Assembly (NCBI GenBank): GCA_012522955.1
Contig: JAAYJK010000090.1
Location: 1-37,987 of the forward strand
From: Syntrophomonadaceae bacterium
Lineage (GTDB): Bacteria; Bacillota; Syntrophomonadia; Syntrophomonadales; Syntrophomonadaceae
Direction of reading: 5' to 3'
DNA: 37,987 nt
In this document: positions 7,459 to 11,327 of the stretch, one piece after another
How the letters are laid out: each line of letters opens with the position of its first letter
Position numbering within the stretch: the first letter of the stretch is position 1
The notes under the pieces: generated by a model
Databases searched by the model: none
What the model was told of the DNA's origin: nothing
The model's input: the letters and a program-made list of their open reading frames with translations, nothing else
Made by a program: the position numbers and the translations under genes

Positions 7459-7476
7459 TTGAGGAGGTTTAATATA

Positions 7477-8850
7477 ATGGGAAAACTGTTTGGCACCGAT
7501 GGAGTTAGAGGTATAGCCAATGCGGATTTAAATGCCGAGCTGGCCTTTCGTCTGGGCATGGCGGGCAGCTATGTATTGGCCCAACATAACAGCAGCAGCC
7601 GACCCCGTATTTTGGTGGGCAAAGATACCAGGATCTCCGGGGATATGCTGGAGGCAGCCCTGGTGGCTGGAATCTGCGCCACCGGATCCGATGCACTCTT
7701 GGCCGGCATTGTCCCCACTCCGGCGGTGGCTTTCCTGACCCTAAAATATGGAGCCTCTTGTGGCATAGTTATATCCGCTTCCCATAATCCAGTGGAAGAT
7801 AACGGCATCAAATTCTTTGGCTCCAATGGCTATAAACTGTTGGATGAAATCGAAGATGAAATTGAAGAGGTGCTGGAAAAGCAGCATTACTTGAAGCGGA
7901 TGCCGGTAGGAGGAGATGTGGGACGGGTTTATCACCTGGAAGACGGACTGAACAACTATCTTAAGCATCTAAGGGATTGTTATACCCTGGACCAGGATTT
8001 AAAAAATATTCGCATGGTGGTGGACTGTGCCAATGGCGCCGCCTATGCGGCGGCGCCTATGCTATGGGAAGAGTTGGGTGCCCGCGTCATTACCATTGGC
8101 AATAAGCCCAACGGACTCAATATCAATGACCGCTGTGGTTCCACCCATACCGACTATTTGAGAAGAACAGTACTGGAAAACAAAGCCGATATTGGCATAG
8201 CTTACGATGGCGACGCCGACCGCTGCATTGCGGTGGATGAGTGTGGGCAGGAGATCGATGGGGACCAAATCATGTGTATCACCGCCCTGGATATGCAAAG
8301 GAGAGGACTTTTGCACCCTTCTGAAGTAGTGGCTACGGTTATGAGCAATATTGGCTTGAATATCGCTTTGAGGAGAGAAAACATAGGAGTCAGCAGCTGC
8401 AAAGTAGGGGATCGCTATGTGCTGGAAAAAATGCTGCAGAACGGTGCCATTCTGGGGGGCGAACAATCCGGGCATATCATCTTTAAAGAGCATGCTACTT
8501 CCGGAGATGGCCTATTGACCTCCCTGAAGCTGCTGGAAGTCATGCAGCGCACCAGCCTGCCTCTATCCCGCTTGGCGGCTGAAATGGAGAAACAGCCACA
8601 ATTACTGGTTAATATTAAGTTGGAAAATGTAGAACAGGTAATGGCCCATGAATCAGTAGTAGAATCCATTGCCAGAGCCCAGCAAAAATTGGGTGAATGG
8701 GGCAAACTAGTGGTAAGGCCTTCCGGCACCGAACCCCTCTTGCGCATAATGGCTCAGGGGCCGGACCAATACCTGCTCAAGGAGGTGATTGAGGATATCA
8801 AAAGCCAGGTGGAACAGCTGGCCGAGAAGTATTCCGGCAGCTATGTTTAA
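7477..8850 (+). CDS. glmM: Phosphoglucosamine mutase GlmM
   Basis: A 457-residue enzyme interconverting glucosamine-6-phosphate and glucosamine-1-phosphate on the way to UDP-GlcNAc. It starts MGKLFGTDGVRG; the phosphoserine loop is VISASHNP with Ser102. The metal loop DGDADR is at 244-249, and the C-terminal sugar-phosphate loop VRPSGTEPLLRIM is present. GAGGAGG at 7461-7467 selects ATG 7477 rather than the TTG at 7459. The stop codon ends one base before the glmS ribozyme cleavage site, so glmM and glmS probably share a transcript that the ribozyme can cut. Confidence 0.96.
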   Translation: MGKLFGTDGVRGIANADLNAELAFRLGMAGSYVLAQHNSSSRPRILVGKDTRISGDMLEAALVAGICATGSDALLAGIVPTPAVAFLTLKYGASCGIVISASHNPVEDNGIKFFGSNGYKLLDEIEDEIEEVLEKQHYLKRMPVGGDVGRVYHLEDGLNNYLKHLRDCYTLDQDLKNIRMVVDCANGAAYAAAPMLWEELGARVITIGNKPNGLNINDRCGSTHTDYLRRTVLENKADIGIAYDGDADRCIAVDECGQEIDGDQIMCITALDMQRRGLLHPSEVVATVMSNIGLNIALRRENIGVSSCKVGDRYVLEKMLQNGAILGGEQSGHIIFKEHATSGDGLLTSLKLLEVMQRTSLPLSRLAAEMEKQPQLLVNIKLENVEQVMAHESVVESIARAQQKLGEWGKLVVRPSGTEPLLRIMAQGPDQYLLKEVIEDIKSQVEQLAEKYSGSYV

Positions 8851-8851
8851 A

Positions 8852-9128
8852 GCGCCTGACCCGACACTATAGGCCAGGCAGAGATGAGCCCAGTTGGGCA
8901 GCATAATCCTACCACCGGGTTTAGATCTTAGGCGGTTCCCGGTGGGAGCAGACTAAAGAGGTTCTGCTGCTTATGCTTGGTCCAGCCCGGAGTTTTTGTC
9001 TATGCCCAAATATAGTTCTTGGGTGACGAGGAGAGGGTTAATCGATTTATTCGGCGGATACCCTCCGGTGAACCACCATCGTAAACCTGACCACAAAACC
9101 GGATAGTAATATGCGGTACAAAAGGTTA
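8852..9128 (+). ncRNA. glmS ribozyme-riboswitch with enlarged P1
   Basis: The self-cleaving RNA uses glucosamine-6-phosphate as cofactor to shut off glmS. The 5' end AAGCGCC matches the family's cleavage site, so cleavage is expected between A8851 and G8852. The core TGACGAGGAGAGGG (9024-9037), TTAATCGA and TCGGCGG followed by ACCCTCC (9059-9065) matches the conserved P2/P2.1/P3 region. AACCT (9084-9088) and AGGTT (9123-9127) pair as P4. P1 is ACCC (8859-8862) with GGGT (9021-9024) plus ACTATA (8866-8871) with TATAGT (9011-9016). Beyond it lies a 139-base structured insert. The 3' end is approximate. Core recognition is by eye against the known family. Confidence 0.88.
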
Positions 9129-9164
9129 GATAAGTGGAAAAGAATAGAATGAATTTCGCAGTTA

Positions 9165-9230
9165 AACCTGGCAGATCCCAGTACTTTACACTGGCTTGAG
9201 CCATCTTAAGTGTAATGGATTCTGCCGGTT
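9165..9230 (+). other. Structured leader hairpin between ribozyme and glmS
   Basis: AACC (9165-9168) and GGCAGA (9170-9175) pair with TCTGCC (9221-9226) and GGTT (9227-9230). TCC(A) pairs with TGGA; TTACACT (9186-9192) pairs with AGTGTAA (9209-9215), closing over GGCT/AGCC (9193-9202). It is a 66-base multi-part stem inside the glmS leader. I do not recognise it as a known RNA family. Confidence 0.5.
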
Positions 9231-9256
9231 GGATAGCGGAAGTTGATCCTTAGTAA

Positions 9257-9400
9257 GATTCCCCTGCGAAAAGTTATATTTCGCATAGATGCATAAATAT
9301 TCGTCCCTCGGCTTCCCAGGGTGTTGCAACCATGCTGCATCAAATGGTTCCTACATATTCATGCATCCAAACCAGTTTTGCTGGATTTTCGCAGGGGGAT
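9257..9400. mobile_element. MITE-like repeat with inverted ends
   Basis: The ends GATTCCCCTGCGAAAA (9257-9272) and TTTTCGCAGGGGGAT (9386-9400) are inverted copies with one mismatch, enclosing about 113 bases. The interior has the AGGGTGTTGCAACCATGCTG and CATCAAATGGTTCCTACATA core shared with 3241 and 20430. No coding sequence is inside. It therefore looks like a small non-autonomous element inserted in the glmS leader. No clear target duplication was found. Confidence 0.6.
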
Positions 9401-9465
9401 GAGAATTAATTTTAGAAAAAGTGTTCAATAGCAGTGTCTGACGGGCCGCTTTGGCGCCCTGGAAG

Positions 9466-9492
9466 CCTCCCTATTGGCATTAATATTGGAGG
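9466..9492 (+). promoter_or_regulatory. Hairpin sequestering the glmS ribosome binding site
   Basis: CCTCC (9466-9470) pairs with GGAGG (9488-9492), and TATT (9472-9475) with AATA (9482-9485), leaving a GGCATT loop. GGAGG is the ribosome binding site of glmS (start 9501). A preceding GC-rich hairpin lies at 9443-9459 (GGGCCGC/GCGCCC). Pairing would lower translation; the trigger, if any, is unknown. Confidence 0.5.
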
Positions 9493-9500
9493 TTTTTGCT

Positions 9501-11327
9501 ATGTGTGGAATTATGGGTTATACCGGAAAAGGCAATGCAGTTCCGGTAATTATAGATGGTTTGGCCAAACTAGAATACCGGGGATATGATTCGGCCGGTA
9601 TCGCCATGTATGAAGATGGAAAAATTCAGGTTTGCAAGAGGAAAGGCCGGCTGGCTGATATGGTCAAGGTTCTTGGAGCGGACTGCTCTTGTCAGCTGGG
9701 TATTGGTCATACCCGATGGGCCACTCATGGAGTGCCCAGTGATCTTAATGCTCATCCCCATTGCGATTGTTCGGGTCGCATAGCCCTGGTTCATAATGGA
9801 ATTATAGAAAACTATGCCAGCTTAAGAAAAGAATTGATACTGGAAGGCCATGACTTTATATCCGATACTGACACCGAAGTTCTGGTTCATCTAATCGAGA
9901 AATTTTATACCGTTTCCCTGGAGGCAGCGGTAAGAAAAGCCCTGACCCTGGTCCGAGGTTCTTTTGCCATGGTAGCTATTTGCAGCGAAGAGCCGGATAC
10001 CATTGTAACAGCTAAAAAAGACAGCCCCCTGATCATAGGCCTGGGGGAAGGAGAAAACTATGTAGCTTCCGATATTCCTGCCATTCTGGGTAAAACCAAG
10101 CAGGTATACATTATGGATGAAAATGAGTTTGCGGTGCTGACCCCTCAGGGAGTGACAGTGACCGATTTTGAAGGCAATCCGGTGCATAAAGAAGTGTTTG
10201 CAGTCAACTGGGATCCAGTCTCAGCTGAAAAAGGCGGCTATGAGCATTTCATGTTAAAGGAAATTCATGAGCAGCCCAAAGCCATCCGGGACACCTTGGC
10301 TGGGAAATTTGAAGATGGACTTATTGATCTAAGCTCCTTGGAAATGGATGATACTTTCCGGCAAGCCGGCAAAATATTTATGGTAGCCTGTGGAACTGCC
10401 TATCACGCAGGCTTGGTCGGCCGATTAGCCATAGAAAAATTGGCCCGGGTACCGGTAGAAACAGATATCGCCTCCGAGTTCCGTTATCGGGATGTATTGT
10501 GGAATCCTCAAGATCTGATGATAGTAGTTAGCCAATCCGGGGAAACTGCCGACACCCTGGCTGCCCTGCGGGAAGCCAAGCGGCAAGGTGTGAAAGTGTT
10601 GGCAGTGACCAATGTGGTAGGCAGTTCAGTAGCCCGGGAGGCGGATAAGGTTATATATACCCATGCCGGTCCCGAAATTGCTGTAGCCTCTACCAAAGCC
10701 TACCTGACCCAGCTGCTGGTGATGTATGCCATCGCCATGTACCTGGCCCGGATCAGAGGCATTTCCAGTTTGGAAGAATTGCGGCAATTAGGGAGCCAGT
10801 TACAGGGTACCCATTCCCAGGTTCAGCAGATTTTAGATTGGGAACAAGACAGTGGACAGATTCGCCAGATGGCAGAAAAATACAGAGAAGTCCAGAGCAC
10901 CTTTTTCCTGGGCCGAGGATTGGATTATGCGGTAGCCATGGAAGGAGCCTTGAAACTCAAAGAAATATCCTATGTCCATGCCGAGTCCTATGCCGCCGGG
11001 GAATTGAAACACGGACCACTGGCCTTGATCCATGACGGAGTACCGGTTTTGGCCCTGATTACCCAGGATCAGCTGGTAGAAAAGACCATGTCCAATATCA
11101 AAGAAGTCAAAGCTCGAGGAGCCATAGTAGTAGCCATATGCAAACAATCTTTGCAGGAAGACTGTCAGGAATGCGATGATCAAATCCTCTTGCCGGATGT
11201 CAATCCGGTTTTGTCCCCCATCGTATCCGTAGTCCCCTTGCAGTTATTTGCCTATTACATGGCCATCTTCCGGGGAGCCGATGTAGACAAACCCAGGAAC
11301 CTGGCCAAATCGGTCACAGTGGAGTAG
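9501..11327 (+). CDS. glmS: Glutamine:fructose-6-phosphate aminotransferase GlmS
   Basis: A 608-residue enzyme forming glucosamine-6-phosphate from fructose-6-phosphate and glutamine. The N-terminal glutaminase domain begins MCGIMGYTG; Cys2 becomes the N-terminal nucleophile after Met removal. GHTRWATHG and the HNGIIENY motif follow. Two SIS sugar-isomerase domains form the C-terminal half, with VACGTAYHAG, SQSGETADT, and the terminal DKPRNLAKSVTVE that carries the conserved Lys. GGAGG at 9488-9492 selects ATG 9501 over the TTG at 9474. It is controlled by the ribozyme at 8852. The last ~120 bases are duplicated just downstream. Confidence 0.97.
   Translation: MCGIMGYTGKGNAVPVIIDGLAKLEYRGYDSAGIAMYEDGKIQVCKRKGRLADMVKVLGADCSCQLGIGHTRWATHGVPSDLNAHPHCDCSGRIALVHNGIIENYASLRKELILEGHDFISDTDTEVLVHLIEKFYTVSLEAAVRKALTLVRGSFAMVAICSEEPDTIVTAKKDSPLIIGLGEGENYVASDIPAILGKTKQVYIMDENEFAVLTPQGVTVTDFEGNPVHKEVFAVNWDPVSAEKGGYEHFMLKEIHEQPKAIRDTLAGKFEDGLIDLSSLEMDDTFRQAGKIFMVACGTAYHAGLVGRLAIEKLARVPVETDIASEFRYRDVLWNPQDLMIVVSQSGETADTLAALREAKRQGVKVLAVTNVVGSSVAREADKVIYTHAGPEIAVASTKAYLTQLLVMYAIAMYLARIRGISSLEELRQLGSQLQGTHSQVQQILDWEQDSGQIRQMAEKYREVQSTFFLGRGLDYAVAMEGALKLKEISYVHAESYAAGELKHGPLALIHDGVPVLALITQDQLVEKTMSNIKEVKARGAIVVAICKQSLQEDCQECDDQILLPDVNPVLSPIVSVVPLQLFAYYMAIFRGADVDKPRNLAKSVTVE

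Follow-up and report, generated by a model that had tools for sequence, protein, structure and literature searches.

The window (the whole 37,987-nt stretch of DNA analysed here, a contig of genome G000) carries a gene cluster in the order cdaA-ybbR-...-glmM-glmS, in which genes for a diadenylate cyclase (CdaA), a YbbR-domain protein, an FAD-dependent protein, and glmM lie 5' of a glmS ribozyme, and a Pfam-confirmed glmS lies 3' of it. The genome is placed in Syntrophomonadaceae, since the named GlmS sequences nearest to this one in the genome collection come from Syntrophomonadaceae and Syntrophomonas records. The features considered below all lie on the forward strand, and glmS, which the ORF finder lists from an upstream TTG, is given here from ATG 9501:

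7459–8850, + strand: glmM (phosphoglucosamine mutase), ending in stop codon TAA at 8848–8850 (ORF list; Pfam PGM_PMM I–IV)
8840–9141, + strand: glmS ribozyme (full-length RF00234 match)
8851–8852, + strand: scissile A(-1)/G(+1) of the ribozyme (sequence and RF00234 alignment)
8859–9024, + strand: P1 arm, 166 nt, with basal helix 8859–8864/9019–9024 and second helix ACTATA/TATAGT 8866–8871/9011–9016 (predicted fold; second helix identical in sister genome G013)
8872–9010, + strand: distal P1 insert, 139 nt, variable, unique in the genome
8901–8976, + strand: predicted enclosing helix GCATAA/TTATGC, 8901–8906/8971–8976
8912–8945, + strand: predicted hairpin CCACCGGG/CCCGGTGG, not kept across the genus
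8948–8967, + strand: predicted hairpin GCAGA/TCTGC
9025–9141, + strand: catalytic core 3' of P1, with P3/P4 periphery (RF00234 alignment; invariant core motifs in five congeners; consensus fold z -5.4)
9258–9400, + strand: MITE-like dispersed repeat, 143 bp, ATTCCCCTGCGAAAA ... TTTTCGCAGGGGGAT, between ribozyme and glmS (34 genome matches; terminal inverted repeats)
9488–9492, + strand: likely glmS ribosome binding site, GGAGG (sequence; within a predicted hairpin in G000)
9501–11327, + strand: glmS, start ATG (MCGI...; Pfam SIS and glutamine amidotransferase domains at 9501–11324)

A covariance model search supported the assignment to the glmS ribozyme made in a first-pass annotation of the sequence: the match to Rfam RF00234 covers the full model (positions 1–167) and scores 81.9 bits (E-value 1.7e-17) against a gathering score of 37 bits. 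It is the sole Rfam match in the window, and the sole glmS ribozyme match in the genome. The scissile A|GCGCC and the core GACGAGG...ATCGA...TTCGGCGG are present in the sequence and in a five-genome alignment of the genus, the core motifs are invariant across these five congeners, and helices P1, P2, P3, and P4 of the family model are found in the RF00234 alignment and the consensus fold. Together with the score above threshold and the position upstream of glmS, this places the element within RF00234. The cleavage position, which we take from established knowledge of glmS ribozymes to be A8851|G8852, falls one base past the glmM stop as the annotation had it, G1 of AGCGCC being base 8852. At the other end of the leader, the GGAGG of glmS pairs with an upstream CCTCC in a predicted hairpin (window 9465–9500; a shorter form exists in G013), which might damp glmS translation.

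The long P1 described from the sequence was recovered with exactly the same insert boundaries. In G000, the base of the arm pairs as ACCCGA/TTGGGT and ACTATA/TATAGT, mostly with a pair probability above 0.9. Three ordered hairpins had been proposed within the insert, two of which are well supported by the predicted fold, namely CCACCGGG/CCCGGTGG (pair probability 0.95–1.0) and GCAGA/TCTGC (in the minimum-energy fold), as is the enclosing helix GCATAA/TTATGC (0.77–1.0). The first hairpin, GCCCA/TGGGC, is unsupported: as written it leaves a 2-nt loop, and its 4-bp form GCCC/GGGC has a probability of about 0.001 because those bases pair long-range. P1 was more stable than 200 of 200 dinucleotide shuffles in G000 (z -3.4; inner part z -3.3), although a slightly different cut (8851–9021) gave a z of only -1.8, with 9 of 200 shuffles equally good, and it also beats shuffles in G013 and G015. 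In the predicted fold of the complete ribozyme with its insert, P1 and the core helices downstream of it are preserved.

Of 54 genomes from the family and 63 from the order, 41 and 48, respectively, have a match to RF00234. Among the 41 family ribozymes, P1 measures 17–67 nt in 30 and 95–375 nt in 11, the latter distributed over at least five genera. In the window genus, the arm is long in all five members (166 nt in G000, 244 nt in G013, and 147, 202, and 147 nt in the others), and the other long arms are those of G021 (119 nt), G022 (112 nt), G032 (139 nt), G037 (97 nt), G035 (375 nt), and G039 (95 nt). Across a phylum-wide sample of 398 genomes, the best 150 matches listed span about 150–212 nt with few exceptions (G408, 339 nt; G356, 243 nt; G211, 226 nt; P1 of 206, 107, and 93 nt, respectively), a list that disfavors long P1s, since inserts lower the score, and which the window genus scored too low to enter. 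In G408 (L089 643–816), P1 is a tandem duplication in which a unit of about 61 bp, each with a hairpin, occurs in about 2.8 copies.

Sequence conservation of the arm differs from that of its surroundings. Between G000 and its sister G013, glmM is 86% identical at the DNA level and the core 82%, versus 58% for P1, with 94 gap columns; for G014 and G016, the corresponding values are 93%, 92%, and 86%. Both basal P1 helices are kept in G013 and similarity extends over the final 30-odd bases of the arm, while the middle is largely replaced. When consensus folds of the five congeners were compared to column shuffles, the core (z -5.4) and the whole P1 (z -4.0) exceeded them, and the inner P1 did not (z 0.0). 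Hence the conserved pairing that the first-pass annotation had offered as a check on the insert is largely absent from relatives. For the G000/G013 pair alone, the inner P1 reached z -3.5, a value matched by 1 of 300 column shuffles, and the aligned G013 counterpart of CCACCGGG/CCCGGTGG can form 7–8 pairs, with several (four) two-sided changes. This counterpart nevertheless has zero probability in G013's own fold ensemble, because a stronger hairpin, TTTGGACCT/AGGTCCAAA with CTGCCC/GGGCAG, replaces the main hairpin. We read the pairing shared by the two sisters as no more than a remnant of an ancestral arm, and not as a conserved domain. A conserved insert structure was also considered: the annotated helices and the minimum-energy fold exceed letter shuffles on the five-genome alignment, but that count includes the reference itself, and the idea was rejected on the better test of consensus folding and on G013's own fold.

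A route by which P1 can grow is seen in G035 and G037, two members of one genus whose P1s align end to end save for an extra 273-bp element in G035 (L053 573–947; L052 in G037). This element has inverted repeats, starting with GACTCCACTGC and ending with GCAGTAGAATC, and is flanked on both sides by TGGATAT, a target-site duplication present once at the empty site in G037. Matches to it number 46 in G035, 57 in G036, and 59 in G037; within G035, many are 97–99% identical, and other copies show duplications of 6–8 bases. From the terminal inverted repeats and target duplication, alongside the many copies and the empty site in a relative, we infer that the G035 insert is a MITE-like element; with it in the P1 loop, the core of the ribozyme still scores 79 bits.

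The insert of the window could likewise derive from a mobile palindromic repeat that inserted into P1 and has since decayed, a reading that concerns its origin only and is compatible with the main explanation given below. Besides the G035 case, this would fit the AT-rich, repeat-like P1 stretches of G021, G022, and G032, which have partial copies elsewhere in their own genomes, the other palindromic repeats held by the same intergenic space in the window genus, and the MITE-like repeat at 9258–9400. Against it, the window insert (8872–9010) has a single match in its own genome, itself, and no convincing match in the 63 genomes of the order, and the G013 insert similarly has no other copy or convincing match within the genus. 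A lone 28-nt match to the window insert in G055 (E-value 1e-3) was taken as chance. Since no other copy exists in the genome, a mobile origin of the window's own insert lacks support, and we consider it possible but doubtful.

Other copies of the 9258–9400 repeat, which lies in the spacer between ribozyme and glmS, are flanked by duplications of about 6 bases, and the distance from cleavage site to glmS is the longest of the genus in G000. In G014, G015, and G016 (L042, L043, and L044), the same spacer holds long palindromes built on GGGGACGGTTCTCTTGTCC / GGACAAGAGAACCGTCCCC, two of them nested in G015, which look like repeated extragenic palindromes. Matches to microRNA families in L042 and L043 were below those families' own cut-offs and reflect the perfect palindromes, not microRNAs.

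The position of the glmM stop codon sets the window genus apart from nearly all others. Counted from the end of the stop, G1 lies at 1, 1, -1, 1, and 1 bases in its five members, versus 6–357 bases elsewhere (a count in which the upstream ORF of G009 is not clearly glmM), with one exception of 1 base in G026, where P1 measures 33 nt. In G014 (L042 near 1472), the stop is TAG and its G is G1, such that cleavage would split the UAG stop and leave a non-stop glmM message. The suggestion that cleavage gives glmM a clean 3' end is therefore doubtful, the cut lying one base past the stop, with no protective hairpin, and inside UAG in G014. While terminating on glmM, a ribosome would sit over the scissile site, and one could envision a translation-coupled timing in which this ribosome, covering also the P1 5' strand, blocks cleavage until it departs, the long P1 delays completion of the core during transcription, and cleavage makes glmM termination less effective or its 3' end less protected, so that glucosamine-6-phosphate (GlcN6P) lowers both glmM and glmS. 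The gap of the genus, the split stop of G014, and the fact that these five P1s are the longest apart from the element-bearing one all point in this direction. However, one clade amounts to one evolutionary event, G026 indicates that the two traits are separable, and the glmM proteins of the genus end with extra residues compared to most others, which may just reflect a frame that continued to its first stop, the TAA just before GCGCC. We consider this timing unlikely, and judge as even less probable the related proposal that the genus has fused the glmM stop to the cleavage site and kept a long P1 in order to place glmM translation and glmS mRNA cleavage under mutual control, with the cut destroying the glmM stop in one species.

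Finally, it is very unlikely that the insert is a selected accessory domain that senses a second signal, or that stabilises or destabilises the ribozyme or the mRNA: the better-than-shuffled folding of P1 in G000, G013, and G015, the long arm kept in all five congeners, and some pairing common to G000 and G013 would be consistent with it, but the genus has no shared inner structure, the aligned hairpin is absent from G013's own fold, the sister arms differ in size and mostly in sequence, and no Rfam family besides glmS was matched at E-values up to 1 in 8300–9700. A second aptamer was rejected given this lack of an Rfam match and of a structure common to the five congeners; with P1 also varying 17–375 nt within the family and holding a mobile element in one case, the second sensing or stability role raised in the first-pass annotation is not supported.

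Instead, the sequence comparisons make it very probable that the glmS riboswitch-ribozyme of the window is functional, that its catalytic core is ordinary, and that its P1 arm has been expanded by an insert that is tolerated, fast-evolving, and self-folding. We favor a tolerated expansion because P1 tolerates loss, the glmS core withstanding as many as eight deletions, most of them in P1 (PMC7125110), and because riboswitches are known to carry variable insertions that fold as stem-loops and leave the core undisturbed (Barrick and Breaker 2007, PMC2258182). The range of P1 lengths within the family, the intact predicted fold of the whole ribozyme with its insert, and the low P1 identity relative to the core in the G000/G013 pair all support tolerated padding. 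Two observations count against it, namely that none of the five genus members has a P1 shorter than 147 nt, a length that neutral drift alone might not keep, and the inner P1 signal of the G000/G013 pair with its 7–8 pairs preserved through compensatory changes at the main hairpin.

P1 points away from the active site, and its distal part can therefore lengthen while the base still pairs. Arms in this region grow when a palindromic mobile repeat is captured, as shown for G035/G037, when a stretch within the arm is duplicated in tandem, as seen in G408, or through other indels. When plentiful, GlcN6P would act as cofactor and the RNA would cut itself at A8851|G8852; the glmS-bearing fragment, with its 5'-OH, would then be degraded and GlmS would fall. 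In B. subtilis, GlcN6P-triggered cleavage yields a 5'-OH glmS fragment that is degraded by RNase J1 (PMC3997798), and we infer the same cleavage and decay here from the intact core.

Overall, the ribozyme of the window is real, and its P1 insert is real, long, folded, and ordinary in kind. More broadly, natural glmS ribozymes show P1 to be a permissive site, which ranges from 17 to 375 nt in one family and holds a multi-copy inverted-repeat element in one species where a congener has an empty site. This variation provides a ready natural test of how much load the arm can bear without loss of function, and cautions against taking each folded insert for a second sensor.

Compared to the glmS ribozyme/GlcN6P riboswitch family (RF00234), the covariance model and alignment show the same A|GCGCC, core, P1–P4 architecture, and location before glmS, the difference being a P1 of 166 nt where most relatives examined have 17–67 nt. 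The arm also parallels the variable insertions of riboswitch aptamers (PMC2258182), with the same long, nonconserved stem-loop at a permissive site and an intact core, whereas the relatives studied here include a direct case of a mobile element within the arm (G035). A further parallel is the leader of the pneumococcal trp operon, in which a BOX element lies between two T-box riboswitches (PMC3049150). There, as here, a dispersed repeat and a regulatory RNA form one composite leader; the BOX element, however, lies between aptamers, while the G035 repeat sits inside a ribozyme arm and the window repeat lies downstream of the ribozyme.
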